In this document: positions 3,308 through 43,578 of the stretch, one piece after another
Position numbering within the stretch: position 1 is the first letter of the stretch
Layout: every line of letters begins with the position of its first letter
DNA from: Candidatus Coatesiibacteriota bacterium
GTDB taxonomy: Bacteria; RBG-13-66-14; B26-G2; JAUVZD01
Length of the DNA stretch: 64,000 nucleotides
Assembly (NCBI GenBank): GCA_030602715.1
Contig: JAUVZD010000002.1
Span: forward strand, 124,001 to 188,000
Direction of reading: 5' to 3'
Made by a program: the position numbers and the translations under genes
Notes under the pieces: generated by a model
Seen by the model: the letters and a program-made list of their open reading frames with translations, nothing else
What the model was told of the DNA's origin: nothing
The model's database searches: none

Positions 3308-6300
3308 CTATACTTTCGCCAACCTTCTCCCGCCTCTCCTAAACTTCAAAGTGATATCATCAAGAAGGGTATAAAAGACCGGCACCACAACCAGGGTAAG
3401 GAAGGTGGAGGTGAGCAGTCCACCGATGACCGCAATTGCCATAAACTTGCGTATCTCTGAGCCGGCGCCTAGTCCGACGGCTATGGGGAGCATGCCCATA
3501 ATCATCGCCGCGGTGGTCATAAGAATGGGTCGCAGACGATTGGGTCCCGCCTTAAGAATTGCATCCCTTCTCTCCATCCCGCTTTTCGTATATTGAATGA
3601 TAAAATCAACCAAGAGAATGGAGTTTTTGTTCACGATTCCCATAAGAAGTATAAGCCCGATCATAGTCATCATATCCAGATAGCCGCCGAAGAGGAAAAT
3701 GAATAGGAAAGCTCCAACGATGGACAGCGGGAGGGCTAGCATAATGGTAAAGGGGTGCAGGAAGGAGTTGTATTGCACCGCAAGGACGATATAGATAAAT
3801 ACGACGGATATTAACATGGCTAAGACCATATCCTTGAACATATTCTCCATACCCTCGGTTTCCCCCTTCATCACCACATCGTAGCCATAGGGTAGCTTCT
3901 CTTGAAACTGGTCTAAGAAACTGGCTATCTCGCCAGATACCTCTCCAAAGGCATAATCGGCGCTGAAGTCGGCGGTGATGGAGACCAGACGCTGACGGTT
4001 TTCCCGCTTAATCTCTGTGGGTCCCACCTCCTCCTCAATCTCCGCCACCGCCTTCAAGGGGATCTTATCCCCCTCGGGGGACAGAATTATTATCCCCTCA
4101 AGCTTCTCCTTCTGGTCCACATCAGTCGGCTCCAACATCACCCTAATATCCGTCTCCGTCTCTCCACTGCGAAACTGGCTGGCGACTACACCGTCCACCA
4201 TAGCCCTTATGGTCATAGCCACATCTGCGGTGGAAAGCCCCACCGCATTTATGCGGTTTCTGTTGAGCACTACCCTATACTCCGGTCCACCCAACTGCAC
4301 GCTGGTGGTGGGATCCACCACTCCGGGTATGGTCTTAATTTTGGCGCTTATCTCCTTGGATAGTTCATTTAATACATCCTGATTAGGACCATAAAGCCGA
4401 ATTTCTATGGGACGTTCCATCTCCTCCCCCTCAAACATCCCTATGGGCATTACTTCGGTCTGCAGTCCGGGGATTTCATCCAACCACTCACGGAGATAGT
4501 CCTTGTATTCCTCAGTGGTAAAGTCCCTCTCCTCTTTAGGAACTATCTTTACTCTCATTCTTGCGATGGTGGGATTCCCCAGCCTGCTTCCAATGGTTGA
4601 GAAGATGGAGACCACATTTTCATCCCGACTCAATTCCTCCTCAATCTGGGAAACGACCTGTGAAGTCTGTTCTATAGTCCAGCCCTGGGGGGTTTCAATA
4701 TGGATGTTGAACTCGCCTTTATCCACCGAGGGCATAAATTGAGTTCCAATAAAGACCATACCCAGCACCAGGCTAACCGCAAAGACACTTACCCCACCAA
4801 TGAGAATAGTCTTACGGTGGTCCAGCGCCCAAGCCAGGACAACTTTATATACACCGTTGAGCCAGAGAACAGCCCTTTCAAAGGGAAGGAACAGCTTCTC
4901 AAACCAACTCCTCTTTCTGACATCCGCCTTCCTTTTTCCCAAGAAGTGGGCGGATAACATCGGCGCCATGGTAAGAGCGTCCCACAGGGAATAGAGAACC
5001 GCAACCGCAACGGTAATGCCGAAAGAGGTGAAGAACTGTCCCACCATGCCGGTCATAAAAGCCATAGGGACGAAGACCGCCACAATGGTCATAGTGGTGG
5101 CGATAACCGCCGGGGCGACCTCTCTGGTGCCCTCGTAAGCGGCTTTTTGGGGGGTCTTGCCGGTCTCCAAATGCCTCCAGATGTTCTCCCGCACTACTAT
5201 AGCATCGTCAATCAATATCCCAACGGCCAGCGAGAGAGCCATGAGAGTTACCATATTTATCGTATATCCGAAGGCATACATCATAATGAATGTGAAGATG
5301 ATAGATGTAGGGATGGCAAGTGCACTTATGACGGTTGAACGCAAATCGCCTATGAAGAACATTATCACCACAACCGCCAGGACAGCCCCTAAGATCAGCG
5401 CCTCTTTGGTTTCGGCGACAGATTCTTCAATGAATTCCGACTGGTCGGAGGATACATCCAGGTCAAACCCCGCCGGCAGGTCCCCCTCTATCTTCTGCAA
5501 CTCCTTCTTTATTCTACTTGCAACCTCAACCGTATTGGTGCCGGACTGCTTATGCAGTTGAAAGGTTACTGAGGGTATTCTATTCACACGAGTGATATTC
5601 TTTATCTCCTTGAAACCGTCGGGGTCAACATATCCCAGATCCCTTATGCGTATTAAAGTTCCCCCTCTATTTATTACTATGATATTCTCAATCTCCTCTA
5701 TATAATTAAACTCGCCAACGGTGCGCAAAACCACCTGTCTCTTCTCCTGCTTGATAATCCCCCCGGGAATATCTATATTTTCCGCCTTTATCGCCCCCAC
5801 CACCATCTGAATGGGAATTTGATATTCCGCCAGCCTGCCGCTGTCCAGATAGACCTTGATCTCCCTCTCCCTTCCGCCGAAAACATCCACCCCGGCAACG
5901 CCCTTTATCTTCTCCAATTGGGGTCCTATCCGCTCCTCGGCAATCTCCCTGATCTCCTCCAGGGGGACATCTCCGGATAAGGAAAATGACATTATAGGCA
6001 GAGCGGATATATCAAAACGTTCAATTATCGGCTCTTCAATATCGCTTGGCAGGTCATTCCTTACCTTGTCCAGTTTACTGCGTATCTCGTCTTCCGCTCG
6101 CTGGGAGTCAACCTCCATCTCCAACTCCAGCCATATCATTGAGTATCCCTCGCCGGAGAAGGAGGTCATAGTGTCCAAGCCCTCAACCGAGGAGAATTCA
6201 TCCTCCAGTATCTTGGTCACATTTTCCTCTATCTCCTCCGCACCGGCCCCAGGATAAATGGTGGTGACGGAGATAAAGGGCATATCAACTTCCGGCATCA

Positions 6301-6406
6301 GGTCCACGCCCAGACGGTTATAAAAGATTACCCCCAGGACCAGGACCGCCAGAACCTGCATGACGATAAAGACCGGTCTCTTGATGGAAATTTCTGCAAT
6401 CTTCAT
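3308..6406 (-). CDS. RND-family (HAE1/AcrB-like) multidrug efflux pump
   Basis: Proton-driven inner-membrane pump exporting hydrophobic drugs through an adaptor and an outer-membrane channel. The 1032 residues have the normal HAE1 layout: N-terminal TM helix (KRPVFIVMQVLAVLVLG), first periplasmic porter loop, TM2-6 with the proton-relay motif GILIDDAIVV in TM4, a second loop, and a second TM bundle with GIVNKNSILLVDF. The gene starts 1 nt after the stop of the adaptor gene and is cotranscribed with it. No TolC-type outer-membrane factor is nearby, so it probably shares one encoded elsewhere. Confidence 0.96.
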   Translation of the reverse strand: MKIAEISIKRPVFIVMQVLAVLVLGVIFYNRLGVDLMPEVDMPFISVTTIYPGAGAEEIEENVTKILEDEFSSVEGLDTMTSFSGEGYSMIWLELEMEVDSQRAEDEIRSKLDKVRNDLPSDIEEPIIERFDISALPIMSFSLSGDVPLEEIREIAEERIGPQLEKIKGVAGVDVFGGREREIKVYLDSGRLAEYQIPIQMVVGAIKAENIDIPGGIIKQEKRQVVLRTVGEFNYIEEIENIIVINRGGTLIRIRDLGYVDPDGFKEIKNITRVNRIPSVTFQLHKQSGTNTVEVASRIKKELQKIEGDLPAGFDLDVSSDQSEFIEESVAETKEALILGAVLAVVVIMFFIGDLRSTVISALAIPTSIIFTFIMMYAFGYTINMVTLMALSLAVGILIDDAIVVRENIWRHLETGKTPQKAAYEGTREVAPAVIATTMTIVAVFVPMAFMTGMVGQFFTSFGITVAVAVLYSLWDALTMAPMLSAHFLGKRKADVRKRSWFEKLFLPFERAVLWLNGVYKVVLAWALDHRKTILIGGVSVFAVSLVLGMVFIGTQFMPSVDKGEFNIHIETPQGWTIEQTSQVVSQIEEELSRDENVVSIFSTIGSRLGNPTIARMRVKIVPKEERDFTTEEYKDYLREWLDEIPGLQTEVMPIGMFEGEEMERPIEIRLYGPNQDVLNELSKEISAKIKTIPGVVDPTTSVQLGGPEYRVVLNRNRINAVGLSTADVAMTIRAMVDGVVASQFRSGETETDIRVMLEPTDVDQKEKLEGIIILSPEGDKIPLKAVAEIEEEVGPTEIKRENRQRLVSITADFSADYAFGEVSGEIASFLDQFQEKLPYGYDVVMKGETEGMENMFKDMVLAMLISVVFIYIVLAVQYNSFLHPFTIMLALPLSIVGAFLFIFLFGGYLDMMTMIGLILLMGIVNKNSILLVDFIIQYTKSGMERRDAILKAGPNRLRPILMTTAAMIMGMLPIAVGLGAGSEIRKFMAIAVIGGLLTSTFLTLVVVPVFYTLLDDITLKFRRGGRRLAKV

Positions 6407-6407
6407 A

Positions 6408-7307
6408 CTAGCTTCCCTCGGCGATAACCTTTACCTCGCTTCCATCCTCAACATCACCCACCCCCACCACTACAACTTTATCCCCCAGTGTAAGACCATC
6501 CTTGACCTCCACTATATCTTTTTCCCTCAATCCCACCTCAACAGGAGTCAATTTAACCTTATCGTTGACTACAACATACACATTTATTGTTCCCTTTTTG
6601 TGGACAAGCGCTTCTTTGGGGACGGTGAGCACATCCTTATGCACCTGCAGGGAAACTTCTATGTCAACGAAAGTGCCGGGGATGAGATTTACCTTACTTT
6701 CGCCTTCCATAGGCTTTATCTCCACCTCGGAAGAATAGGTATAAGTATCAATCACGCCGGAAACACGGGTAACCTTTCCAGAGATGGTCTCATCGTTTAT
6801 GCGGATTCTTACCTCCCCGCCTTTTTGCAGATAGGGCAGGTCCTTTTCGGTCACATTACACACTATCTTGGTGCTCCCCATCTTGACCACCATCGCTATG
6901 GGCATACCCGGGCTGACATAATCGCCTACATCCTGCATAATCATTGCCACATAGCCACTGATGGGAGATTCGGCGACATAATTCTTAAAACCCAAGCCGG
7001 GTTCGTCACGGTCTATCACCGCGATGGTGCTTCCCGCCCAGACATACGAGCCGATGGAGACCGGGATGGAGACAATCTTTCCGGGAATCTTGCTCACCAC
7101 CTCCACCTGATTGGTGGATTGCACGACGCCGGATATGAACAGGGAATTCTCTACATTGCCCAGGGAAACCTCCGCCACCTCCACCGGCACCGCCTTTACC
7201 TCCTGCCCTGCAGGCGCCTTCATCATCCTGAAGACGGTGATGACCACCCTCACCGCCACAACTGCGATGATGAGGACGATTATTATGATGATTATTCTCT
7301 TCTTCAT
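6408..7307 (-). CDS. RND efflux periplasmic adaptor (HlyD/MFP family)
   Basis: Bridges the RND pump to an outer-membrane channel. Residues 5-28 form an N-terminal membrane anchor (IIIIIIVLIIAVVAVRVVI). The chain then shows the split lipoyl-like hairpin (VEVVSKIPGKIVSI and later ESPISGYVAMIMQDVGDYV), a beta-barrel domain, and a membrane-proximal domain near the C-terminus. The lipoyl halves are joined by a very short linker (about 30 residues), so the alpha-helical hairpin is essentially absent, as in short MFPs. It is first gene of a two-gene operon; a TetR-type palindrome lies about 100 nt upstream of its start. Confidence 0.92.
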   Translation of the reverse strand: MKKRIIIIIIVLIIAVVAVRVVITVFRMMKAPAGQEVKAVPVEVAEVSLGNVENSLFISGVVQSTNQVEVVSKIPGKIVSIPVSIGSYVWAGSTIAVIDRDEPGLGFKNYVAESPISGYVAMIMQDVGDYVSPGMPIAMVVKMGSTKIVCNVTEKDLPYLQKGGEVRIRINDETISGKVTRVSGVIDTYTYSSEVEIKPMEGESKVNLIPGTFVDIEVSLQVHKDVLTVPKEALVHKKGTINVYVVVNDKVKLTPVEVGLREKDIVEVKDGLTLGDKVVVVGVGDVEDGSEVKVIAEGS

Positions 7308-7407
7308 CTTTCTACTCCGCTCAAACCCATACTTTTGTCAAACTACCCTGATTTTGTAGATGCTTTATACACTTAAAAGCGCACAAAAAGATGAACGCTC
7401 AGTCACT

Positions 7408-7427
7408 TTCTGACCGATTGGTCAGAA
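7408..7427. promoter_or_regulatory. TetR-type operator upstream of the RND operon
   Basis: Perfect palindrome TTCTGACC-gatt-GGTCAGAA. Such TGACC/GGTCA dyads are typical of TetR-family repressors of RND pumps. No tetR gene is in the window, so regulation in trans is inferred. Confidence 0.65.
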
Positions 7428-7485
7428 TCATAACAATGGGAAAACCCCCTGTCAAGCCCTTATTATGAAAAATAGAGGTATCCAT

Positions 7486-14031: not shown

Positions 14032-14219
14032 TAAGGACATTCCCACCTACTTTGGTAATTCCAAGGCTATATATCAGTAATCCACCACAAATCCTGGTTA
14101 TAAAAACACGCCCTTCGCTGGGTATTTTTTTTAATTATATCAACGCTTTTTTCCCTCCAACTATTTGAACCCTGTGGTATATTAACCGCAAGCATCCAAA
14201 AATAGAAGTGGGGAAAAGC

Positions 14220-14840
14220 ATGCGTCTTTTTACCTTAGCTTTTGCATTACTCTTATTCTTGCCCTTTGCGGCAAACGCCGACATCGTCTTCCACGAGGAG
14301 TTTGACGACCCTGAAGGCTGGATGGGCTCCGGCAACCCGCCGGACGGATGGACCATCTATGACGACGACCCGGGCACCAGCGACTGGCACCAAGGAACCT
14401 ACGGCAGCGATAACGCCGCCTACATTACCCGGACTCCCATTGAGTACGCCATGGGTGACTCCCTCATCAAGTACGACATCGTCACCCTTGACTACTGGAA
14501 CCTGGAACTGAGCTACTTTGTGGACATCCATTGGAACACCTCGGATTATTACTCGGGTATCTTCTATGTTTACGGCTCCAACGACCAATTCAGTATGGAT
14601 TGGCACTCCCTTCTGTGGGTCCCTTGGCCCGACCAAACCTACTCTGGGGGCGCTACCGTAACCCACCACATCAGCTCCTGGGGGGATGACCAGGATACAG
14701 TAGGCGTCTGGTTCGGACTTTACTGTAACAACTCCTGGGCTATCTGGGATATCTATCTGGATGAGGTGCACATTGAGGGCGACTACGATACCGTCATCCA
14801 GCCCACCTCCCTGGGTAAGATCAAAGCAATGTATGAGTAG
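14220..14840 (+). CDS. Secreted W/D/G-rich protein, tandem family member 1, with conserved C-terminal tag
   Basis: Signal peptide MRLFTLAFALLLFLPFAANA supports the ATG at 14220. The mature ~185 residues begin FHEEFDDPEGWMGSGNPPDGW, then DWHQ, GSNDQFSMDWHSLL and ISSWGDD, a pattern resembling cleaved-adhesin/choice-of-anchor-J-type jelly rolls. The last residues VIQPTSLGKIKAMYE match the C-terminal signature shared by six proteins in this island. Its closest relative is the next gene (15056-15673), nearly identical around the signal peptide, the PPDGWTIYDD segment and the tail. A palindromic terminator follows. Role unknown; surface attachment is inferred. Confidence 0.85.
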   Translation: MRLFTLAFALLLFLPFAANADIVFHEEFDDPEGWMGSGNPPDGWTIYDDDPGTSDWHQGTYGSDNAAYITRTPIEYAMGDSLIKYDIVTLDYWNLELSYFVDIHWNTSDYYSGIFYVYGSNDQFSMDWHSLLWVPWPDQTYSGGATVTHHISSWGDDQDTVGVWFGLYCNNSWAIWDIYLDEVHIEGDYDTVIQPTSLGKIKAMYE

Positions 14841-14862
14841 TAATATTTTTTCACCACCTCTT

Positions 14863-14906
14863 AAAAGCCCCCCCGCCGCCAAAGGCGGGGTGGCGGGGGG
14901 GCTTTT
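14863..14906. terminator. Terminator built on a nested GC palindrome
   Basis: AAAAGCCCCCCCGCC (14863-14877) pairs with GGCGGGGGGGCTTTT (14892-14906), enclosing a second GCC-aaa-GGC hairpin. Follows the stop of family member 1. Confidence 0.85.
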
Positions 14907-14991
14907 CTTTTATGACCCTCGTCCTCTTAGGACTAAAAGTTACCCACCTCCCCTCTCGAAAGGAAAACTTTTGGGCAAGTGGATTTTTTTC

Positions 14992-15020
14992 TTGCATTTA
15001 TTATAGTTTTATGTTATTTT
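14992..15020 (+). promoter_or_regulatory. Promoter of tandem family member 2
   Basis: TTGCAT (14992-14997), 17 nt, TATTTT (15015-15020). The same TTGCAT-17 arrangement recurs before the gene at 18877. Confidence 0.5.
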
Positions 15021-15055
15021 TTCCCACACTATCACTACACTAAAGGAGGCAGATT

Positions 15056-15673
15056 ATGCGTTACATGACCATGATTTTTGCTCTACTGATGGTCTTACCC
15101 TTTGCGGCAAGCGCCGACGAGATCTTTGACGAGGAGTTTGACAGCCCCTCAGGCTGGATGGGCTCCGGCAACCCGCCGGACGGATGGACCATCTATGACG
15201 ACGGCAACCCTGGCAACAGCGACTGGCACCAATACTCTTACGGCGGCGGCAACATCGCCAGAATCTACTACTCTCCCGTGGAGTATTACAACTCGGATGT
15301 CCTGATTAAGTACGGCGTTGACTGCGGCAACTACTACGACATAGAACTCAGCTACTGGCTAGAAGTTGACTGGTACTGCTACGGTGGCTATTACGGTTAC
15401 TTCTACGTCATCGGCTCTACCGACTCATTCTCCTATGATTGGAACTACCTGCTTTCAAACTCCTGGTCCTCTCCAATCTACTCCACCACTATGTCTCACA
15501 ACATCGGTGACTGGGCAGACTACGAGGATAGCGTCAGCATTGGTTATTGGTTCGGCATGGACGACACCTACGGACTCTGGTGGATCTATCTGGACGAGGT
15601 GCACCTTGAGGGCGACTTAGATACCGTCATCCAGCCCACCTCGCTGGGTAAGATCAAGGCAATGTATCAGTAG
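15056..15673 (+). CDS. Secreted W/D/G-rich protein, tandem family member 2, with conserved C-terminal tag
   Basis: AAAGGAGG before the ATG and signal peptide MRYMTMIFALLMVLPFAASA define the start. The mature chain follows the family pattern (FDEEFDSPSGWMGSGNPPDGW, DWHQ, GSTDSFSYDWNYLL, NIGDWADYED) and has an unusually high tyrosine content in the middle. It ends VIQPTSLGKIKAMYQ. Member 1 upstream is clearly a recent duplicate: the 3' flanks also share CACCACCTCTTAAAAGCCCC before their terminators. Confidence 0.85.
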   Translation: MRYMTMIFALLMVLPFAASADEIFDEEFDSPSGWMGSGNPPDGWTIYDDGNPGNSDWHQYSYGGGNIARIYYSPVEYYNSDVLIKYGVDCGNYYDIELSYWLEVDWYCYGGYYGYFYVIGSTDSFSYDWNYLLSNSWSSPIYSTTMSHNIGDWADYEDSVSIGYWFGMDDTYGLWWIYLDEVHLEGDLDTVIQPTSLGKIKAMYQ

Positions 15674-15695
15674 AAAGATTTATTCACCACCTCTT

Positions 15696-15721
15696 AAAAG
15701 CCCCGCCTTGGCGGGGCTTTT
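15696..15721. terminator. Terminator/GC palindrome after family member 2
   Basis: AAAAGCCCCGCC-tt-GGCGGGGCTTTT; shared by the convergent GNAT gene. Confidence 0.85.
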
Positions 15722-15745
15722 CTTATCATCCCCATCCTCTCACTC

Positions 15746-16192
15746 CTAAACGCTCTGGTCCTCCCTCTTGGAGAGATAGTAGATGTCCCTGCTCAGTCTA
15801 TAACCCTCTTTCTGGAATAGTGCAAGCGAGGGCTCATTTAAGTCCTCAATCAGACAACAGATTATCCTCGCTCCCATGGCCTTAAGCGCTCCCTCCGCTA
15901 GGACGATCATCCTGGCTCCAAGCCCCTGTCTTCGCCAGTCCGGGTGCACCGCCAGCCGGTTTATCCATCCCTTGCGCCCCTCCCAGCTTGCCAGCACCAT
16001 CGCCACCATTCTATTACCGTCAAAGGCACCGATAAAGACGATGTGGTCATCCTCCATCTGCCGGGCAAGCTCATGCGGGGAATCCCTCCCCTCCGGGCGA
16101 TGGTCAAGCTCCGCATCCCGAAAGAGCAGACAAATATCATCAATGTCCTCTCTTGACAATCTCCTCGTGGAATATCTTTCCCTGACCATCAT
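15746..16192 (-). CDS. GNAT-family N-acetyltransferase
   Basis: 148 residues with a single GNAT domain transferring acetyl from acetyl-CoA to an unknown amine. Motif A is plain: INRLAVHPDWRRQGLGARMI, with the RRQGLG pyrophosphate loop; the end shows the family's EPSLALFQKEGYRLSRDIYYL. Overall like RimI-type or small-molecule acetyltransferases; the substrate cannot be told. Convergent with the tandem secreted gene upstream. Confidence 0.88.
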   Translation of the reverse strand: MMVRERYSTRRLSREDIDDICLLFRDAELDHRPEGRDSPHELARQMEDDHIVFIGAFDGNRMVAMVLASWEGRKGWINRLAVHPDWRRQGLGARMIVLAEGALKAMGARIICCLIEDLNEPSLALFQKEGYRLSRDIYYLSKREDQSV

Positions 16193-16220
16193 CCTCCTTG
16201 AAAGAACACAGTCAAACTTC

Positions 16221-16249
16221 AGCCCCCCCCCGCCTTGGCGGGGGGGGCT
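16221..16249. terminator. GC-palindrome hairpin between tRNA-Ile and the GNAT gene
   Basis: AGCCCCCCCCCGCC-tt-GGCGGGGGGGGCT, eight bases from the tRNA 3' end; positioned to terminate the leftward tRNA transcript. Confidence 0.7.
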
Positions 16250-16256
16250 TTGAATT

Positions 16257-16332
<76 letters not shown>

Positions 16333-16577
16333 CAGCGCTAAAAATTCTACCAAAAGGGGAAAACCTTGTCAAGCGGTATATGAGTGAAAAACAAAATCAA
16401 GCTCATCAATTGGCAGAATACATCCGGAGCTACAGAAAGTGTAAAATTAAAAGGAAAAACCTGCCTAAAATTTGCTCATTATTTCTCCCCATTTCAGTCT
16501 GATTTATGATATAATTACATTGTCGGTAGAAACATTGGTCAAAAAGAATTTTTTGAAACCACAAAAAGGGGTTTGCC

Positions 16578-17189
16578 ATGGAAAAAACAGTCCCCCTTTT
16601 GGTTTCCCTTTTGCTCCTGTCCAGCCTATCCTCAGCAGATGTCATCTGGGTGGAGGAATTCAACAACCCCAGCGGGTGGTGGGGCTCCTCAAATCCCCCC
16701 ACCGACTGGACTATCTATGGTTCCGACCCCGATGACGAAAACGACTGGCATCAACATAGCACCGGTCCCTACGGCAATGCCGCCTACATCTATTACTCCC
16801 CGATTGAATCCCCCATGAACGACAAGATGTACGGTCCCTATGTGAACTGCTCCGGTTATGAGGATGTTCATATTGATTTCTGGCTCTCCTTGAAATGGAA
16901 TCCCTCGGGAGTGTATTATGGTTATTTCTATCTCTGTGGATTTGACGGCGCCTCAAATCATGACATATATGAGGTTTTCTGGCCCAACATGGTCTATCCC
17001 GGCACACTTCTCAGTTTTGACATCAGCTCCTGGGCGGACGGGCACTATCCGGTGGCTATCTTCTTCAAAATCTACCTGAGCAACAGCCAGGGCTTATGGG
17101 AAGCCGCCGTTGACCACATCGTCATACACGAAAGCGGTGTTGCGGTAAGACCAAACTCCATCGGGAGGCTCAGGGCTATTTATAATTGA
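16578..17189 (+). CDS. Secreted W/D/G-rich protein, tandem family member 3, with conserved C-terminal tag
   Basis: Signal peptide (MEKTVPLLVSLLLLSSLSSA). The mature domain repeats the family pattern: VEEFNNPSGWWGSSNPPTDW, ENDWHQ, YYSPIESPMNDKMYG, ISSWADG. It ends VRPNSIGRLRAIYN, the most divergent version of the C-terminal signature. A TATAAT-like -10 lies near 16509. No terminator is visible before member 4, 127 nt downstream. Confidence 0.83.
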   Translation: MEKTVPLLVSLLLLSSLSSADVIWVEEFNNPSGWWGSSNPPTDWTIYGSDPDDENDWHQHSTGPYGNAAYIYYSPIESPMNDKMYGPYVNCSGYEDVHIDFWLSLKWNPSGVYYGYFYLCGFDGASNHDIYEVFWPNMVYPGTLLSFDISSWADGHYPVAIFFKIYLSNSQGLWEAAVDHIVIHESGVAVRPNSIGRLRAIYN

Positions 17190-17315
17190 AGAAGGCTGTC
17201 TATTTTAATTGTGGCCTGAGGACAACCGGTGAGGAAAACCTTTTTCCTGCAAGGCTAAGGACGGGGCGATTGGTGGGTTAATGCACCTATCTCTTCTCAT
17301 TAAAAGGAGGAAGAG

Positions 17316-17936
17316 ATGAGAGCTTCTTTGTCAATCATGCTTTTTCTGGTTTTGCCCTCTTTGACATTTGGGGTAACCATCTTCTCCGAGGAGTTCAGCA
17401 ATCCGGATGGATGGTGGGGCAGTGAAACGCCCCCCACCGGCTGGGTGATAATTGACGACGGGGGTTACCAGGAGGAAAACGACTGGCACCAGGAGTCCTT
17501 CGGTTCCGATGACCTCGCTTCCATCGGTTACTTTCCAGAAGAGGAACCCATGTCCGATGTGTTATATCGCATCGGGATGGACTGCAGTTCAGTTGAAGAG
17601 TGCACTCTGGACTACTGGTTCTCGCTTGACTGGTATAATAACCCACCCTTCACATACGCAGGGAGTTTCTGCATCTTCGGTTCAACCGACAGCTTCAATC
17701 TTGATTGGCATACCATCCTGCAGGTGGACTGGCCCGACGATATCCCCTCCGGCGTCTATGCCCAGGATATAAGTTCATGGGCTGACCTGAACCCCAATGT
17801 CGGCATCAGGTTCCAACTCAGTCTCAACAATTCCTGGGGGCTGAACTTCGCACATCTGGACAGCGTCCAGATAAAAGGTGAGAACGTCGCCGTACAGCCT
17901 GCATCCCTGGGCAAACTGAAGGCAATCTACCATTAG
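17316..17936 (+). CDS. Secreted W/D/G-rich protein, tandem family member 4, with conserved C-terminal tag
   Basis: AAAAGGAGGAAG before the ATG and a signal peptide (MRASLSIMLFLVLPSLTFG). The domain pattern FSEEFSNPDGWWGSETPPTGW, ENDWHQ, PEEEPMSDVLY, GSTDSFNLDWHTIL, ISSWADLN is collinear with member 3. Ends VQPASLGKLKAIYH. It is followed at once by a long palindromic terminator. Confidence 0.85.
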   Translation: MRASLSIMLFLVLPSLTFGVTIFSEEFSNPDGWWGSETPPTGWVIIDDGGYQEENDWHQESFGSDDLASIGYFPEEEPMSDVLYRIGMDCSSVEECTLDYWFSLDWYNNPPFTYAGSFCIFGSTDSFNLDWHTILQVDWPDDIPSGVYAQDISSWADLNPNVGIRFQLSLNNSWGLNFAHLDSVQIKGENVAVQPASLGKLKAIYH

Positions 17937-17958
17937 GCTGTAAGACTGCGCAGACATT

Positions 17959-18001
17959 AAAAAGCCCCCCCGCCCCGCCGATGGCGGGGGGGGGCTTTTT
18001 T
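17959..18001. terminator. GC-palindrome terminator after family member 4
   Basis: AAAAAGCCCCCCCGCC stem with GGCGGGGGGGGGCTTTTT, T-run to the right and A-run to the left, so usable by both convergent genes. Confidence 0.85.
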
Positions 18002-18023
18002 GCGTTAGTTAGATAATTCCCTA

Positions 18024-18590
18024 TTATGCTGAGGCGGAAAAGTCGGGTCTTATCTCGCTTATGCAGGTGTCCTCCCACTTCTCCCCCCGAAAGACCTGGT
18101 CTATGGTGAACTTGACCCAACTCACTCCTTTGCCGTCCAGGGGGTGAAATTGGGTGGTCTCCTGGTCGTTGAGCTCTAAATTTGCCTTCCCTCCATTGGA
18201 GAATTCCACCGCCAGCATCTTGACCGCAGCGTTATCATAATAGCGTTCCTCATCAATGGCGAAGCCGTTGATGATATCCACCCCAGTGATATCCACCGGC
18301 ACATTGAAGGTGAACTTCACCCATTCACCCTGCCCCCAGCCTTTGGCTCCCTCCGCCCAGCAGGTGCTGGCAAGCCCGTCGTTGACCTTTTCCGGGGCGA
18401 AGCGGTCCGGTTCCTTGGGATGCTCCATCAGAACGCTGGAAGCTTCAATCTTCTCTATCCTCGCCTGCACCTCCGCCTCCGTCGGCTCAACCTCCTCCGT
18501 TGGCTCAACCTCTTCCTTCTTACAACCCAGATACAACAGCAAGAAGAAGGCGATAAAGACGGCAATTAACAGGACTAATGCCCGGTTCAT
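18024..18590 (-). CDS. Lipoprotein with a discoidin/NADase-type glycan-binding domain
   Basis: 188 residues. N-terminal hydrophobic segment ends in the lipobox LYLGC (Cys ~23), so the protein is probably lipid-anchored. A Glu/Pro/Thr-rich tether with a duplicated EEVEPTE motif follows. The domain from ~residue 45 (SSVLMEHPKEPDRFAPEKVNDG, TCWAEGAKGWGQGEWVKFTF, GVDIINGFA) matches the F5/8-type-C-like beta sandwich often called NADase-type glycan-binding. Role: probably surface sugar binding. Convergent with the secreted tandem array. Confidence 0.8.
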   Translation of the reverse strand: MNRALVLLIAVFIAFFLLLYLGCKKEEVEPTEEVEPTEAEVQARIEKIEASSVLMEHPKEPDRFAPEKVNDGLASTCWAEGAKGWGQGEWVKFTFNVPVDITGVDIINGFAIDEERYYDNAAVKMLAVEFSNGGKANLELNDQETTQFHPLDGKGVSWVKFTIDQVFRGEKWEDTCISEIRPDFSASA

Positions 18591-18731
18591 AATCCATCCT
18601 TTTCCTTTGGGCGTTTATTTATGGCGATATTAACACCCTTTGCCAGCAACAGTCAATAGAAAGTCTCTCAAAGGTGGATTTTGCGGAATAATGTGGCGAA
18701 AAGATATTCTGCAAATTATCGTTTTTTTAAC

Positions 18732-18760
18732 TTGACAATAGAAATCTGTTTACTTAAAAT
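18732..18760 (+). promoter_or_regulatory. Strong promoter upstream of the gene at 18877
   Basis: TTGACA (18732-18737), 17 nt, TAAAAT (18755-18760). Confidence 0.65.
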
Positions 18761-18794
18761 ACGAGGTGAAAATCCGCTTTTTTTCAGATTTTTC

Positions 18795-18823
18795 TTGCAT
18801 CTTTTTGGAATATGTGCTATCTT
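18795..18823 (+). promoter_or_regulatory. Second promoter upstream of the gene at 18877
   Basis: TTGCAT (18795-18800), 17 nt, TATCTT (18818-18823). Same TTGCAT -35 as at 14992. Confidence 0.45.
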
Positions 18824-18876
18824 ATCTCCACATTGGAGCTAACCTTAAACCACTAAACCAAACGAAGGAGTGAAAG

Positions 18877-19557
18877 ATGGGAAAGTTACCTATCTTTCTG
18901 GTTGCGGTTATATTGGTAGTTGCGTTAGCAGCTACAGCAGACCAGATGAAGCCAACCAAGCTCAACAGTTCATCGGCTTCCCATCCCTTCCCCGGCTCCG
19001 GCGATGTTGAGATGTACTACTATGGAAACCCCATGTATTACTCTACCATGTACATTGAACATCTGTTAGCGGTCAACTACGACCCGGATGACGCCTACAC
19101 CTTTGGCTGGGAATTTCACCATGACTACGAAATCGTTGAGATTGACACCATGTGGTATAACCCCGGCGGAGCTGACGGAAGCGCTGCCTTCTGGATCTGC
19201 CCCGACGATGGTGGGGTGCCCGACTTGAGCAACCCCTGGGTAGAGGGCACGCTCAACTACGCCGGTGTCTACTATCCCGCCTATTACGAGTATGACATTG
19301 ACGACCCGGTATGCGTGCCAGCGCTCACCATCAGCTGGCTCGTCGTTGAGGTCAATGCCTTTTCCGACTACCCCTTTACCGACGGTGGCGGTAACAGCGG
19401 CCACTCCTGGTACAGCCAAGACGGCGGCACCACCTGGCATCTCGCCTTCAGTTCTGAGCTGATTGACTTTGTCTGGAGTGCCTGGGCTGACGAGTGCGAC
19501 GACCCTGTCGCAGTCCAAAGCACCTCTCTGGGAAGCGTAAAGGCTCTGTTCAACTAA
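18877..19557 (+). CDS. Secreted protein of unknown fold with the conserved C-terminal tag
   Basis: GAAGGAGTG before the ATG; signal peptide (MGKLPIFLVAVILVVALAATA). The mature ~205 residues differ from the four tandem paralogues: FGWEFHHDYEIVEIDTMWYN, ADGSAAFWICPDDGG, GHSWYSQDGGTTWH, and a probable beta-sandwich. The end VQSTSLGSVKALFN nevertheless carries the shared signature, showing that the tail travels independently of the domain. Two promoters precede it and a palindrome terminator follows. Confidence 0.85.
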   Translation: MGKLPIFLVAVILVVALAATADQMKPTKLNSSSASHPFPGSGDVEMYYYGNPMYYSTMYIEHLLAVNYDPDDAYTFGWEFHHDYEIVEIDTMWYNPGGADGSAAFWICPDDGGVPDLSNPWVEGTLNYAGVYYPAYYEYDIDDPVCVPALTISWLVVEVNAFSDYPFTDGGGNSGHSWYSQDGGTTWHLAFSSELIDFVWSAWADECDDPVAVQSTSLGSVKALFN

Positions 19558-19574
19558 TCACACTCAACGACCAC

Positions 19575-19604
19575 ACCACCCCCGCCGTGGCGGGGGGGGG
19601 GTTT
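19575..19604. terminator. GC-palindrome terminator
   Basis: CCACCCCCGCC-gt-GGCGGGGGGGGGG followed by TTTATTTAT, after the gene at 18877. Confidence 0.75.
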
Positions 19605-19667
19605 ATTTATCAGTTTCTATTAACCTGCGCCAGGTGATTATTGCAGATGAAACGATAGGATTTAAGG

Positions 19668-19696
19668 AAAGGGGCGACCGTATCGGTCGCCCCTTT
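19668..19696 (-). terminator. Terminator of the gene at 19727-20431
   Basis: Perfect 13-bp arms AAAGGGGCGACCG/CGGTCGCCCCTTT around a 3-nt loop, 30 nt past the stop codon. Confidence 0.75.
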
Positions 19697-19726
19697 ACAT
19701 TTAAGTGGGGGTCTTAGCCAGAATGC

Positions 19727-20431
19727 TTAGTGAAACAGGCTCTTAATTTCGCCGACCGAGGACGGTTGTACGGCACTTGGTACTTCGTACCCGGTAATGA
19801 TGTAAGACAATTCGGAATATTCGAAGAAGTAGTCCGGGGCAGAGTACCAAATACCATCATCTGCTTTGAACCAACAATAGTCCTCTACAATGGAGTCTTC
19901 TCTAACCATGAAGAACACATTACTGGAGGTATCACATTGGACAGCGATCCAGTAGTACTCGCCACCGGTTAGCATCACGCATTCGAATTCGAATTCGACA
20001 TTATACACGGTATAGCCGAAGGCCGTCATCCCACTATCGGTTATGTCTACGTCGCCAAGGTCTACACTGAAGGAGATTAAGATATCACCGCCTGGAATGT
20101 CTTCATAGAATATGACATTCATATCGCCTTGGCCCCCAGTAAAGATCGCATGCATGTGCAAGTCCTCAACATTCCAGTCACTACCTTCAGGTGCGGTGTA
20201 GTCAAAGGCTACCCAGCGGTCATAGCTACCACCGCCGGTAAAGGCGGAATAACCGTTGCTGAATTGACCGGAGGAGGTGACCAAGTTGTCAACAAGAACG
20301 TCTTTGAGGCCGTAGTCATAAGCTTCACCAGAACCGTTGCTAGGACCTGTAAAATGGGTATCGGTGTTGATACCGAAGGTCACGCTCGTTAGAGCTAATA
20401 CACTAACGACGATTAAAAAATACTTGAACAT
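19727..20431 (-). CDS. Secreted protein on the opposite strand with the conserved C-terminal tag
   Basis: AAAGGAGG site, then a signal peptide (MFKYFLIVVSVLALTSVTFG). The mature 215 residues are Asp/Tyr/Gly-rich (YDRWVAFDYTAPEGSDWNVEDLHMHAIF, GEYYWIAVQCDTSS) and look like a beta-sandwich extracellular domain; no family recognised. It ends VQPSSVGEIKSLFH, the sixth copy of the signature. The gene has its own consensus promoter and a palindrome just downstream of it, so it is separately regulated. Confidence 0.85.
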   Translation of the reverse strand: MFKYFLIVVSVLALTSVTFGINTDTHFTGPSNGSGEAYDYGLKDVLVDNLVTSSGQFSNGYSAFTGGGSYDRWVAFDYTAPEGSDWNVEDLHMHAIFTGGQGDMNVIFYEDIPGGDILISFSVDLGDVDITDSGMTAFGYTVYNVEFEFECVMLTGGEYYWIAVQCDTSSNVFFMVREDSIVEDYCWFKADDGIWYSAPDYFFEYSELSYIITGYEVPSAVQPSSVGEIKSLFH

Positions 20432-21672: not shown

Positions 21673-22347
21673 ATGTTCGCTAAAAAACAGACCATAATCC
21701 ATTGTGCTCTACTACCGATATTGCTGATGACCTGCGCCACCGCCTTTGCTCTATCCTACGGCGACGGCTACTTTTATGTCGGCGGTATGCTGAATCTATA
21801 CAATCCACGGGAGAGCTTTTATCTTGGTGATTACTACTACTATGATGATTTTGAGGTCGCTACCGGTATGGGTCCCGGGATAAATATGGGACTAAACCTC
21901 ACCTCCCATCTGTCCTTCCCGGACATCAGCGCGGATATGATAATCCATAATCTTAAATATCCCTATCGGGGTTATATGGAAAATTTTGATGCCCAAATGG
22001 AACTGCGCATCTACAACATCATGCTGGGTGGAAAGTATAAGTTCGGATACTGGAGAGTTGAACCCTATGTTCGGGCGGGGATACTCTTCCAGGACATCCG
22101 TCTCAAGGAAAGTATAGACTATGTTGACTCTGACGAATATAATTATACCGAAACCAGTTTTTACTGGGGTTTCGCACCTTACATAGGCGGGGGAATAAGC
22201 TACTACATCACACCCAAGATATACATGTCCATTGAAACCCTCTATTCCAACGGGACGGGAAGCTACAAGTCGGTCTATGAAGAATATCACACCATCCGTA
22301 TTGGTGGAAACCATATCAACTTCGCCATGGGATTTATGCCCTTTTAA
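21673..22347 (+). CDS. Small outer-membrane beta-barrel protein, duplicate A
   Basis: AAAGGAGGGAG before the ATG. Signal peptide (CALLPILLMTCATAFA). The mature ~195 residues consist of amphipathic strands with aromatic ends (GYFYVGGMLNLYNP, MGLNLTSHLSFP, GGKYKFGYWRVEPYVRAGILF, FAPYIGGGISYYITPKIYMSIETLYS) and a terminal NFAMGFMPF, i.e. an OmpW/OmpA-like 8-strand barrel with C-terminal Phe. Function unknown. 224 residues, same length as duplicate B. Confidence 0.82.
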   Translation: MFAKKQTIIHCALLPILLMTCATAFALSYGDGYFYVGGMLNLYNPRESFYLGDYYYYDDFEVATGMGPGINMGLNLTSHLSFPDISADMIIHNLKYPYRGYMENFDAQMELRIYNIMLGGKYKFGYWRVEPYVRAGILFQDIRLKESIDYVDSDEYNYTETSFYWGFAPYIGGGISYYITPKIYMSIETLYSNGTGSYKSVYEEYHTIRIGGNHINFAMGFMPF

Positions 22348-22496
22348 GCTCAGCGAAGGGAATTACATTAAAAATCCCCGAAGGTCTCCTTCATTCCGTC
22401 TTTGCCGGAAAACCTGTGGACAAGCAACCAAATTTATATTACAACCTATATGTATTTTTGCCCCTAAGCTCACATTTTGAGAAAGGAGGGAGATAG

Positions 22497-23171
22497 ATGT
22501 TCGCTAAAAAGCAGACCATAATCCGTTGTGCTCTACTGCCGATATTGCTGATGACCTGCGCCACCGCCTTTGCTCTATCCTACAGCGACGGCTACTTTTA
22601 TGTCGGTTCTATGCTGAATCTATACAATCCACGGGAGAGTTTTGAAATCCGTTTTGGTTATAGTGATTCAATGGATGTCGCTACTGGTATGGGTCCCGGG
22701 ATAAATATGGGACTGAACCTCACCTCCCATCTGTCCTTCCCGGATATCAGCGCGGACGTGATAATGCATATGTTGAAGGGCCGCACTTGGATCTACCCTG
22801 AAGGCGATGTTGACTTCAGTAAACAAATGCGTATCTACAACATCATGTTGGGTGGAAAGTATAGATTCGGACATTGGCGTATTGAACCATATGTTCGGGC
22901 GGGGATACTCTTCCAGGATATTCGCCTGCAGGAGAAAGTTAGTCCCCTAAACCCAGATTTTAACGACCATGCCAAAACCGAATTCTACTGGGGTTTTGCA
23001 CCCTACATAGGCGGGGGAATAAGCTACTACATCACACCCAAGATATACATGTCCATTGAAACCCTCTACTCCAACGGGACGGGAAGCTACAAGTCGCCCT
23101 ATGAAGAATATCACACCATACGCATTGGTGGAAACCATATCAACTTCGCATTTGGGGTGCTTCCCTTCTAG
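22497..23171 (+). CDS. Small outer-membrane beta-barrel protein, duplicate B
   Basis: Identical Shine-Dalgarno region and signal peptide to duplicate A; strand segments are nearly identical, while two presumed extracellular loops differ completely (after NPRESF, and after LKG). Ends INFAFGVLPF. Loop-only divergence is what surface exposure and variable selection would produce. A small hairpin follows. Confidence 0.82.
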   Translation: MFAKKQTIIRCALLPILLMTCATAFALSYSDGYFYVGSMLNLYNPRESFEIRFGYSDSMDVATGMGPGINMGLNLTSHLSFPDISADVIMHMLKGRTWIYPEGDVDFSKQMRIYNIMLGGKYRFGHWRIEPYVRAGILFQDIRLQEKVSPLNPDFNDHAKTEFYWGFAPYIGGGISYYITPKIYMSIETLYSNGTGSYKSPYEEYHTIRIGGNHINFAFGVLPF

Positions 23172-27745: not shown

Positions 27746-27808
27746 CTCTTGCTCCTTGCACATTCTGTATATTATTATACAATCCCATAATACTCAAGTC
27801 AACCCCCC

Positions 27809-28507
27809 TCACCACTCCTTCCCCACCAATACACCCCGATAGTCCTCGCCCGCCTGAAACTGCACTCCCCAGCCGGAGTAGGAGAGACCCAAGCCCACTA
27901 TGGGGTTCAGCTTGCCGGAGTGGCTTCCCGCGCCGGCATAGAGACCGAAGCCCAGCTTGCTCCAGAACCCCCCCGCCTTTTGGCGGGGCTCCACCACCTC
28001 CACCTCGCCGATGGTGACACCGATAGAGCTGGTCCCCAGCCATACGCCCTCATCGGTCTTATATACCTGAAGGTCTATCGGCGGGAGATGGTAGTCTATG
28101 GAGTAAGTGGCGGATGCGCCGTCGGTCCAGGTCTCGCCGTCGCTCCACTCCTCGCTCCAGTTAACCGTGTAGCCCTCATCCCCCGCCATAGGCGGGGTGA
28201 CCTGGCCCTCCCCCTCAACCAACCGCCTCTCCAGCTCCGCCGAATACTCTGCATACCACTCTATCTCCTGGTGTAGATCGGCTATCTCCTCCGCCGCCTC
28301 CCGGTTTACCAGTGCCTGATAATCTATTTTATCAACCACAGTGGGGCTGACCTCCACCAACTGCGGGGAGTGTCTGCGCACCTCCCCCATCTTGAGCCGG
28401 GAGGATTGTTTGCGCCCCTGCCACCAGGCTGAGACCTGCCATACAGCATAGAGCAGGAGAATGATGACCACCACTGCTATTGCTATGCGGATAGCACGTG
28501 ATAACAT
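27809..28507 (-). CDS. Phage-cassette membrane protein with coiled coil
   Basis: 232 residues: N-terminal TM helix (IRIAIAVVVIILLLYAVWQV), a coiled-coil stretch (AAEEIADLHQEIEWYAEYSAELERRL), then a beta-rich C-terminus (GLYAGAGSHSGKLNPIVGLGLSYSGWG). It resembles small membrane proteins of phage lysis/tail-end modules. Two GC-palindrome copies lie inside the reading frame (27968-27988 and 28180-28197) and encode the PRQKAGG and TPPMAGD segments. Confidence 0.65.
   Translation of the reverse strand: MLSRAIRIAIAVVVIILLLYAVWQVSAWWQGRKQSSRLKMGEVRRHSPQLVEVSPTVVDKIDYQALVNREAAEEIADLHQEIEWYAEYSAELERRLVEGEGQVTPPMAGDEGYTVNWSEEWSDGETWTDGASATYSIDYHLPPIDLQVYKTDEGVWLGTSSIGVTIGEVEVVEPRQKAGGFWSKLGFGLYAGAGSHSGKLNPIVGLGLSYSGWGVQFQAGEDYRGVLVGKEW
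27968..27988. repeat. GC palindrome inside the membrane-protein gene (copy a)
   Basis: CCCCCCCGCC-ttt-tGGCGGGG, in frame. Confidence 0.8.
28180..28197. repeat. GC palindrome inside the membrane-protein gene (copy b)
   Basis: CCCCCGCC-ata-GGCGGGG, in frame. Confidence 0.8.
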
Positions 28508-28593
28508 ATATACCTCCTTGCCTGACCCCTCCTAAATAAATACAGGTAACATGGAATGCCTATTCGGGCGGCACAGAATGCCGCCCCTACAGG

Positions 28594-29106
28594 TCATTCA
28601 CCCAACAATATCGTCTTCTTGGGGCGGAAGTGCCACCACTCCCCGCCAAAGGGGCGCACCAAACCGGCTCTCTTTGCCGCCAGACGGCACTCACCGATGG
28701 ACAGCACCGGAAAGAAGCTCTCCCGGGTGTAGCGGGTGGGGCAGTCTATAGTCCATCCGCTCCAGTGACCGAAATCGTCGTGGGTGTCCAGGGCGCCGCA
28801 GCAGTCCCGGTAGGCACCGGAGCCTGCGGTGGTGCCGATGGGGCGAAAGGCGGATGTTAGATAGATGAGCCCGAAGGTGGGGGTCAAGTTCCTGGCGTCC
28901 GCCTTTGTCCGGCATATCTTTTCCATCTCCTCTATCCAGGTTTGCATGCAGGCGAACATACCGGGTTGAACCCGCATATCCATCTCAATCAACGGCTTGG
29001 CGATCTCCGGGGGTATCTCCACCAACCGCTCGCTCACATCCTCCCGGTCCAGGAGGCGGAGACGACCCATTCTTGTGGGGTAGCGCTTACCGACGACGCA
29101 GACCAT
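28594..29106 (-). CDS. M15-type peptidase, probable phage endolysin
   Basis: 170 residues. Zinc-peptidase signatures: GHWSGWTID (H-x2-G-x3-D) and EWWHF (E-x2-H) fit the D-Ala-D-Ala carboxypeptidase/L-Ala-D-Glu endopeptidase fold. A preceding LTSAFRP matches the S-x-F/Y-R segment of the family. No signal peptide, so release would need the adjacent membrane (holin-like) proteins. An imperfect GC palindrome (near 28641) encodes RPFGGEWW next to the last zinc ligand. Confidence 0.82.
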   Translation of the reverse strand: MVCVVGKRYPTRMGRLRLLDREDVSERLVEIPPEIAKPLIEMDMRVQPGMFACMQTWIEEMEKICRTKADARNLTPTFGLIYLTSAFRPIGTTAGSGAYRDCCGALDTHDDFGHWSGWTIDCPTRYTRESFFPVLSIGECRLAAKRAGLVRPFGGEWWHFRPKKTILLGE

Positions 29107-29108
29107 CG

Positions 29109-29378
29109 CTACTCCTCAAGTAAATCATCCCCGCCCCCGCCAAAGGCGGGGCGGGGGGCATCCGGACTTTGGTTATCCTGCAAGAGTTTACGCTTCTGCC
29201 AGGCGTTCGTCCCCAGATAGGCGATGACAAGCCCGCAGAGTGCGGCGAAGATGGTCGGCGTGTGCTCCCCAAGCCACCGGAAAGGTGACCAGGCGGGCAG
29301 GATGAAGGCGGCAAAGAGACCGACTAAAGTCATGATTAAGGTGATGATGAACTTTCGTGATAGGAATCTGGAACCCAT
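29109..29378 (-). CDS. Holin-like two-TM membrane protein
   Basis: Start at the ATG at 29378 (GAGGT upstream; the frame is open further up). About 89 residues with two TM helices (FIITLIMTLVGLFAAFILPAW and PTIFAALCGLVIAYLG), then a charged tail. Position directly before the endolysin gene suggests a holin. The tail APRPAFGGGGDD is encoded by a long GC palindrome (29129-29158). Confidence 0.65.
   Translation of the reverse strand: MGSRFLSRKFIITLIMTLVGLFAAFILPAWSPFRWLGEHTPTIFAALCGLVIAYLGTNAWQKRKLLQDNQSPDAPRPAFGGGGDDLLEE
29129..29158. repeat. GC palindrome inside the holin-like gene
   Basis: CCCCGCCCCCGCC-aaa-GGCGGGGCGGGGGG; nested double version. Confidence 0.85.
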
Positions 29379-29413
29379 GGTTATACCTCGCTTCAAATTA
29401 ATTGGAACTCTAA

Positions 29414-29659
29414 TTACATCCACTTGACCAGCAGGGCGGAAAGGAGGCTTGCCAAGAAGGACAAGACGGTCACAATAACCGTCAGGCGCACCTCGGCGGC
29501 TCTTATTCGCTCCCGAATTTTCCCCATCTCACCGCCTATCCTCACCAGCGCCTCCTGGAAACGGTCATGGTCCCGCTGGTCGGCGGCGCAGTGCGCATTC
29601 AGCCTTGCCTCTACCACCTTGGCGGTAACTCTGGCGTTATTACTCTTGTTCACTCTCAC
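29414..29659 (-). CDS. XhlA-like coiled-coil plus C-terminal TM protein
   Basis: 81 residues: an N-terminal amphipathic coiled coil (RIGGEMGKIRERIRAAEVRL) followed by one C-terminal TM helix (VIVTVLSFLASLLSALLV). This is the layout of XhlA-type haemolysin/holin-associated proteins of phage lysis cassettes. Sits between the fibre gene and the holin-like gene. Confidence 0.65.
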   Translation of the reverse strand: MRVNKSNNARVTAKVVEARLNAHCAADQRDHDRFQEALVRIGGEMGKIRERIRAAEVRLTVIVTVLSFLASLLSALLVKWM

Positions 29660-29673
29660 TTCACCTCCCCGGG

Positions 29674-31689: not shown

Positions 31690-31882
31690 CTCCTCCTGTT
31701 GTTCTGTTCCAGACTAAATCCTCCGTCTTATCCTCTTTGGCTGTAATCTTCTCCCGGATGACCAACCCCAGAAGCTCCCCCTGCTCCAGGTGGAGTTCTA
31801 TCTCCCCGCAGAAGCCCTCCTCAATGAGGGAGAGGAAAAGCTCCTCAAGTTCCCCCAAAGTCTCTTTCTTACCTTCGCTCAT
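31673..31882 (-). CDS. Small phage-cassette protein
   Basis: 69 residues, acidic and helical (ETLGELEELFLSLIEEG), overlapping the genes on both sides (4 nt with the LamG gene as ATGA, 17 nt with the fibre gene). No family recognised; overlap pattern supports translation. Confidence 0.6.
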   Translation of the reverse strand: MSEGKKETLGELEELFLSLIEEGFCGEIELHLEQGELLGLVIREKITAKEDKTEDLVWNRTTGGDDGKQ

Positions 31883-33132
31883 CCGGTCACCATCACATCA
31901 AGTGTGGAATTGTAATAAGTGAGCCTGTCCTGTCCACCGTAGCCCCCCTCATCAACCAAGCTGTAGTGGCAAAGCTCTGTATCCGAGTAGTCGCCATCCG
32001 CGGTCCAGAACTGAAAATCGCGCCACCATACCGGTTTGCTCCCCCCCTCTCGGACGCCGTCATTGCCATAGGAACCGGCATCGTGGAGGTCATCGCCGTC
32101 GTATTCGTCAAAATGAAAGAGCACCGTGCTCCTTCCAAAGGGGCGCAAGCGACTATAACCCTTATATAGGGTTGCAGGATGACAGCCGTCGGAGATATAA
32201 AGAACGGAGTGGGTTCGGCGATACTCGTCAAGTTTGCCGTCGTGGACATTACCGTTGCCGGCATCGCACCCCAGCTTGATAGGGCTCTCGTTGGTGGTGA
32301 GGTCTCCGCTGGCAGGTGCCTCCCCCATCTTGACCCCGTCAACGAAAATGTAGGCTTTCTCGCTATCCTCGCCGTCATAGACTGCGCTCAGAAGATAAGG
32401 CGTCGCCGACTGCAGGGGTTGGGCGGTGGTGACGCTCACCCCGGCTCTGGGGGAAAAGGTCAGATAGCCGTCCGAATCCACCGAAAGTTCTTCTATCCCC
32501 TCACCTTTGCTGTGCAGGAAGAAGTGCTCACCTGAGGAGGGCAGGCTATCCAGCATCACCCACATATCTAGGGTCAGGGCGTCCTTCGTGTTCAAGCTAT
32601 CGTGGTGGGCAATCTCCACCCTAGAACCTCCGCCTCCGCCGAAATCCAGCGAAGCTGAACCTCCCAGAAAGTGATAGTTTTCCCCGAACACGGGAATGTG
32701 GGCGAGAAGCTCGCATCCTTCCAGAATCACCTCGCCCTCATAGCCGTGCATCTTCCCCCGGGCATATTCAAAGCGGAAGTCACTTTTGGGCAAGACCCAG
32801 TAAGCGATGTTCCGGCAGTCGCTGTGGGGAAAGAAACGCAGGCGCCCCCTACCGGATGCGCTCCAGGAGAAGATGCGAACCAGCTTCTTATAGTCCCCCA
32901 GGAGGAGATACTTGTAGGGCAGGATGACTCTGTAGCGGAATCCGTGCACCCAGGAGACCACCTTACCGGAGATGGTAGTTACCTCATCCCCCTCACGTAT
33001 GAACCCCTCCTTTATCGCACCGCCGGCATCCTGGGGCAGGGTAATCTCTTCTATGGTCTTTCCATCCCAATCCAGCAGGGTCAGCTTTGGAGGACCGGTG
33101 CCCCCACTTACATAGTCATTCCAATCAATCAC
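31879..33132 (-). CDS. LamG-domain tail protein
   Basis: 417 residues; GTG start overlaps the preceding stop by 4 nt. The N-terminal ~150 residues are an unknown structural domain; ~165-330 is a concanavalin-like LamG fold (LTLDMWVMLDSLPSSGEHFFLHSKG, PYLLSAVYDGEDSEKAYIFVDG, IKLGCDAGNGNVHDGKLDEYR). Likely binds cell-surface polysaccharide as part of the tail tip. Confidence 0.72.
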   Translation of the reverse strand: MIDWNDYVSGGTGPPKLTLLDWDGKTIEEITLPQDAGGAIKEGFIREGDEVTTISGKVVSWVHGFRYRVILPYKYLLLGDYKKLVRIFSWSASGRGRLRFFPHSDCRNIAYWVLPKSDFRFEYARGKMHGYEGEVILEGCELLAHIPVFGENYHFLGGSASLDFGGGGGSRVEIAHHDSLNTKDALTLDMWVMLDSLPSSGEHFFLHSKGEGIEELSVDSDGYLTFSPRAGVSVTTAQPLQSATPYLLSAVYDGEDSEKAYIFVDGVKMGEAPASGDLTTNESPIKLGCDAGNGNVHDGKLDEYRRTHSVLYISDGCHPATLYKGYSRLRPFGRSTVLFHFDEYDGDDLHDAGSYGNDGVREGGSKPVWWRDFQFWTADGDYSDTELCHYSLVDEGGYGGQDRLTYYNSTLDVMVTG

Positions 33133-37869: not shown

Positions 37870-37872
37870 GGT

Positions 37873-38550: not shown

Positions 38551-38561
38551 CTTATCTCCCT

Positions 38562-39186: not shown

Positions 39187-39206
39187 ACGAACTCACCTCA
39201 GAACGC

Positions 39207-39923: not shown

Positions 39924-39976
39924 AGATTCTCCTTATAATCTCAGAACCAACACACATATCATAATTGCAAACCAGC

Positions 39977-41766: not shown

Positions 41767-41777
41767 CGTATCTCACC

Positions 41778-43563: not shown

Positions 43564-43578
43564 TCACATATCTTAAAA

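Follow-up and report, generated by a model that had tools for sequence, protein, structure and literature searches.

A short C-terminal tail on unrelated exported proteins of FCB-group bacteria, a candidate sorting signal linked to the type IX secretion system

The window analysed here, a 64,000-nucleotide stretch of a Candidatus Coatesiibacteriota genome (contig JAUVZD010000002.1, positions 124,001 to 188,000), encodes six secreted proteins that share a tail of about 14 residues at their extreme C-terminus. Comparison across genomes lends good support to the view that this tail is a strictly C-terminal sorting signal carried by many unrelated exported proteins. Its co-occurrence with the type IX secretion system (T9SS), together with its exchange with the type A domains of that system, further suggests a helical signal that is read by the T9SS, a reading to which we assign a probability of about 0.5. 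C-terminal sorting tails as such are a known kind, but this one is unlike the signals described and appears to be new.

The six window tails follow the common pattern V-x-P-x-S-[LIV]-G-x-[IVL]-[KR]-[AS]-[ILM]-[FY]-x-stop, and the C-termini quoted for them in an initial annotation of the window all proved exact when the open reading frames (ORFs) were read again:

14208-14840, plus strand: secreted choice-of-anchor-J/cleaved-adhesin-like protein, tail VIQPTSLGKIKAMYE; the ATG at 14220 is the likelier start
14796-14837, plus strand: tail of this protein, the last 14 codons ahead of the stop
15056-15673, plus strand: paralog of the 14220 protein, tail VIQPTSLGKIKAMYQ
15629-15670, plus strand: C-terminal tail of the 15056 protein
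16578-17189, plus strand: paralog of the 14220 protein, tail VRPNSIGRLRAIYN
17145-17186, plus strand: C-terminal tail of the 16578 protein
17316-17936, plus strand: paralog of the 14220 protein, tail VQPASLGKLKAIYH
17892-17933, plus strand: C-terminal tail of the 17316 protein
18877-19557, plus strand: secreted protein of a second family, tail VQSTSLGSVKALFN
19513-19554, plus strand: C-terminal tail of the 18877 protein
19727-20431, minus strand: secreted protein of a third family, tail VQPSSVGEIKSLFH
19730-19771, minus strand: C-terminal tail of the 19727 protein

The motif thus ends six of the 101 window ORFs of at least 120 residues, where shuffling of the last 40 residues gives an expectation of 0.0. 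The proteins at 14220, 15056, 16578 and 17316 cluster as one choice-of-anchor-J/cleaved-adhesin-like family (the J family), and those at 18877 and 19727 represent two further sequence families. With four of the six proteins in one paralogous family, the window holds three families and not six folds: the earlier claim of different folds was an overstatement, the 18877 and 19727 families being defined by sequence. An AlphaFold2 (AF2) model of the 15056 protein is a jelly-roll from which residues 190-205, comprising linker and tail, are detached and disordered (predicted local distance difference test score, pLDDT, below 50). The J-family jelly-roll has among its better PDB matches two adhesin domains, K1 and K3, from the known T9SS substrate Lys-gingipain (Kgp). 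Amid the tail genes lies a lipoprotein-like gene without the tail (18024-18590, minus strand), which encodes an NADase-type discoidin/glycan-binding domain (NF047619, E 2e-36).

The tail is placed with great precision. We sampled 800 kb, taken in stretches, of the single-contig Coatesbacteria relative G006, a member of the same class as the window genome. This sample, with 743 called genes, contains 41 copies of the motif, of which 39 lie exactly one residue ahead of the stop; 20 shuffles of the whole set yielded no C-terminal and seven internal matches. The extreme C-terminal location first noticed in the window holds in this sample as well, and an internal motif is ruled out. A consensus built from one protein for each of 50 families, counted back from the stop, has V at -14, E/Q at -13, P at -12, S/T at -10, L or W at -9, G at -8, no strong choice at -7, I/V at -6, K at -5, A/S at -4, L/M at -3, F/Y at -2 and mostly R at -1; the regular expression used for collecting pre-set part of positions -10 to -2, whereas the preferences within classes, at -14 to -12 and at -1 were not imposed. 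The final residue is variable and polar, with the aromatic one at -2. At the conserved positions synonymous codon choice varies freely, so that conservation acts at the protein level and a recent DNA repeat is ruled out. Plotted as a helical wheel, the tail has only one weakly constrained position, -7, a pattern that suggests burial of the helix in a groove more than a place on a lipid surface. The mean hydrophobic moment is 0.23-0.46, and the net charge of some tails, such as SLGKIKAMYE, can approach neutral. AF2 predicts a C-terminal helix (pLDDT 74-78) in a family with a fibronectin type III (FN3)-like domain, described below, and disorder in the same region of the window J family. By inspection of the window and G006 tail proteins, no hydrophobic stretch of transmembrane (TM) length lies within or directly before the tail, nor is there an Arg cluster or other basic cluster, which rules out an LPXTG- or PEP-CTERM-like tail, as the initial annotation had argued.

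The proteins that carry the tail belong to many families. Once the tail was removed, 143 collected proteins fell into 50 sequence families, and their bodies matched clearly different Pfam and NCBIfam models, among them beta-helix, NHL and PD40 propellers, CBM96/DNRLRE, Temptin_C, Omp28, pectate lyase and P-domain. Such domains are typical of extracellular or surface proteins, and a single paralogous family is ruled out. By a crude heuristic, a Sec signal peptide precedes 34 of 39 tail proteins in the G006 sample, compared with 247 of 704 other genes, in line with the signal peptides first noted in the window; a loose lipobox occurs in nine of the 143, mostly within ordinary signal peptides. 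Tail proteins make up 5% of the sampled genes and are short, with a median length of 270 residues against 820 for T9SS type A proteins. In none of the tail proteins scanned does a Pfam or NCBIfam model extend over the tail, which places it outside the described tail domains, and we found no published account of it in the open-access literature.

A search of the genome and its relatives showed the tail to be genome-wide and widely distributed. The DNA pattern G-x-hydrophobic-[KR]-[AS]-hydrophobic-[FY]-x-stop has 25 sites in the 2.31 Mb window genome, and the reversed pattern one. A second pattern returned 27 distinct ORFs there, with a signal peptide on nearly all that are not cut short, and 24 tail ORFs of at least 60 residues form 17 families. 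In the sister family f3, exact-pattern counts rise to 106-165 per genome. A stricter pattern, run over 386 genomes, gave 48 positive genomes in 29 families, with control matches at 0 in all genomes. Among the matches listed, and with lineages named after the depositors' record titles, the tail occurs in Coatesbacteria, Eisenbacteria, Krumholzibacteria, Fermentibacteria, Delongbacteria, Latescibacteria, Zixibacteria, KSB1, Marinimicrobia, Calditrichia, Ignavibacteria/Melioribacter and Gemmatimonadetes; a few of these matches, for instance to short ORFs in L120, L124 and L167, seem fortuitous. Judged from sequence, the tail is spread over at least ten related phyla. The sister class f5 has a variant, [TS]FGxIKATFR, which our search patterns undercount and which ends choice_anch_J-like proteins at loci L304, L306 and L307 (genomes G010, G007 and G013).

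Many carrier genomes hold a single strict tail, on a secreted one-domain FN3-like protein of about 130 residues that ends almost invariantly in TWGSIKAMFR, several letters of which were pre-set by the collecting pattern. This protein is found in Ignavibacteria, Calditrichia, KSB1, Marinimicrobia and others (L074, L075, L076 and about 45 named loci). It matches no Pfam or NCBIfam family above threshold; its AF2 model (mean pLDDT 90) shows a beta domain followed by a C-terminal helix at 120-131, and Foldseek relates the model to FN3 modules. No conserved operon accompanies the gene beyond housekeeping synteny in Ignavibacteria. At L074 a gene for a PorV-like outer membrane protein, recognised by eye (6365-7336, minus strand), lies some 600 bases from the FN3 tail gene; none was seen at the other loci.

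What connects the tail to the T9SS? The PF14349 profile detected the translocon gene SprA in 46 tail-positive genomes, and a class-specific query recovered it in the remaining two, G005 and G006, hence in 48 of 48. Among the 338 tail-negative genomes, most of them scored by profile alone, 62 have SprA (61 by profile, G012 by class query); the resulting Fisher p of 7e-31 is too optimistic because the genomes share ancestry. C25 peptidases are likewise present in all 48 carriers, and the carriers tested encode many PorV-family proteins, the window genome 11. Tail proteins and their genomes show several features of T9SS cargo: a signal at the extreme C-terminus, a Sec signal peptide, and SprA, PorV-family (in the carriers tested) and C25/PorU-like genes. 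The window genome also has 36 T9SS type A sorting domains, two of them inside the window, so that the FlgD-like ends which the annotation had set apart from the tail are real and distinct from it:

45941-46153, plus strand: type A sorting domain PF18962 on ORF 45695-46183 (residues 83-153, E 5e-11)
49069-49299, plus strand: type A sorting domain TIGR04183 on ORF 47695-49308 (residues 459-535, E 1.2e-11)

Tail and type A domain appear to be exchanged between related bodies. Within one genome, as in G005, G223 and G352, a choice_anch_J/cleaved-adhesin body may end in either. On contig 30 of G352 (L300), adjacent tail J proteins (532-1632 and 1643-2809) lie near two type A proteins, of which one, at 4355-7432, has the same J domain as the tail proteins of its array. 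Type A domains can likewise follow the FN3 body that the conserved tail protein has (L177, L065 and L236). None of the eight type A proteins in the G006 sample carries both signals. Signal peptides, strict position and exchange with T9SS domains together support the sorting or anchoring role first proposed for the tail; the accompanying suggestion that its machinery is undescribed fared less well, since the translocon that co-occurs with it is the known SprA.

Of the described signals, the type A domain (TIGR04183, PF18962) comes closest. Like the tail it is C-terminal, follows a Sec signal peptide and is borne by many unrelated secreted bodies, including the same ones (choice_anch_J, FN3) in the same genomes. 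It is, however, an immunoglobulin-like beta-sandwich of 70-80 residues with motifs A-E (PMC10202324), whereas the tail is a predicted helix of about ten residues that lacks these motifs, is modelled by AF2 as helix or disorder instead of a beta-sandwich, and gave no TIGR04183 or PF18962 match on any tail protein scanned. Shortened C-terminal signals exist in Prevotella intermedia, whose short T9SS C-terminal domains of 40-51 residues form three beta-strands and retain motifs B, D and E (PMC11969387); the tail retains none of the three. The T9SS also reads several unrelated signals, among them types B (TIGR04131) and C, by means of specialised shuttles (PMC10202324, PMC12618676), but these are much longer (type B is a beta structure of about 100 residues or more) and differ in sequence. 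PEP-CTERM, GlyGly-CTERM and LPXTG are, like the tail, short C-terminal ends of many unrelated exported proteins, yet they are tripartite, with the TM helix and basic cluster that the tail is missing.

How might such a tail be read? We envision a signal composed of a short V-x-P linker and a ten-residue amphipathic helix, [ST]-[LW]-G-x-[IV]-K-[AS]-[LMI]-[FY]-x-COOH, about 14 residues in all, that would serve many secreted proteins of FCB-group (Fibrobacteres-Chlorobi-Bacteroidetes) bacteria as an alternative to the type A domain. The Sec signal peptide would first direct the protein to the periplasm, where the body is expected to fold as an independent, mostly beta domain, leaving linker and helix free, as AF2 predicts for two families. 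A dedicated protein groove might then take up the helix through its constrained Gly, Lys, Ala/Ser and hydrophobic positions near the C-terminus, as their conservation suggests. Given co-occurrence and exchange, the receptor would belong to the T9SS, most plausibly as one of the many PorV-family shuttles acting with SprA, and the small protein would be exported to the cell surface or retained there. Because known T9SS signals are beta structures of at least 40 residues and specialised shuttles read different classes of them, it is plausible that one more class exists and has a shuttle to itself.

Several observations weigh against a role of the T9SS. The known signals of this system are beta structures, whereas the tail is predicted to be helical and shares no motif with them, and the shortness of tail proteins may mean that the two signals lead to different destinations. 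The co-occurrence with SprA may merely mirror shared FCB ancestry; the tail is missing from the genomes in which SprA matches most strongly (G216, G346), many carriers hold one strict tail protein beside dozens of type A domains, and neither a gene neighbour nor a protein partner of the tail was identified. Conceivably, though we hold this doubtful, the tail instead docks onto an undescribed envelope receptor or export/attachment machine, separate from the T9SS and merely co-inherited with it. Its lack of resemblance to any T9SS signal, a conservation of nearly the whole helix that points to a protein groove, its absence from the strongest-SprA genomes, and the retention of the TWGSIKAMFR protein in many phyla, often as the sole strict tail of a genome, would all agree with this. 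The tail would then be the address label of a non-T9SS export or surface-attachment machine ancestral to the FCB superphylum. Many lineages would have the FN3-like protein as its one conserved client, and the set of clients would have grown past 100 in part of the Coatesbacteria and into the tens in certain other lineages, a scenario that we put forward only tentatively. However, no such machine was found beside the tail genes, the Ignavibacteria neighbours of the conserved protein being housekeeping genes, and another reason would be required for the fact that the same bodies carry T9SS domains in exchange for the tail.

Direct contact with the membrane seems unlikely. Penicillin-binding protein 5 (PBP5) has a C-terminal amphipathic membrane anchor, and the tail, with its predicted C-terminal helix, hydrophobic and basic residues and hydrophobic moment, might similarly lie in the periplasm-facing leaflet as a peripheral anchor of exported proteins. 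Yet a lipid surface would have no need of the conserved Gly at -8, small residue at -4 and Lys at -5 (in part pre-set by the search motif), and the tail comprises only about ten residues at an exact spacing from the stop, can be near neutral in charge and follows typical extracellular domains; the PBP5-type anchor is longer, belongs to one protein family and has no exact-position consensus across unrelated proteins. We consider it highly improbable that the tail marks proteins for a periplasmic protease or quality-control factor. Some periplasmic proteases do read hydrophobic-aromatic C-terminal ends, but here the last residue is polar and variable with the aromatic one at -2, and a mark carried by 5% of the genes in the 800 kb sample is unlikely to be one for degradation. 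Because four of the six window proteins are paralogs, one might suspect that the tail is simply where a single diverged domain family ends, or that it arose by chance; the counts, with 50 families of differing Pfam domains and a control at zero in 386 genomes, refute it, and we give this explanation practically no weight.

If the T9SS reads the tail, the system accepts a short helical peptide, the view of its signals as beta domains would change, and a very small export tag would be gained. If it does not, a surface-sorting machine common to at least ten phyla is still to be discovered. Either way, annotation of secretomes in FCB phyla stands to improve, as the richest genomes, from largely uncultured phyla, encode more than 100 secreted proteins whose localisation signal escapes present-day family libraries.

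Elsewhere in the window, two closely similar outer-membrane-barrel-like proteins of 224 residues each are encoded in tandem at 21673-23171. From about 27800 to 44900, chiefly on the minus strand, a run of large and mid-sized ORFs resembles, by eye, a prophage structural module, with a capsid-like protein at 40867-41766 and large proteins at 34090-37869 and 29674-31689.

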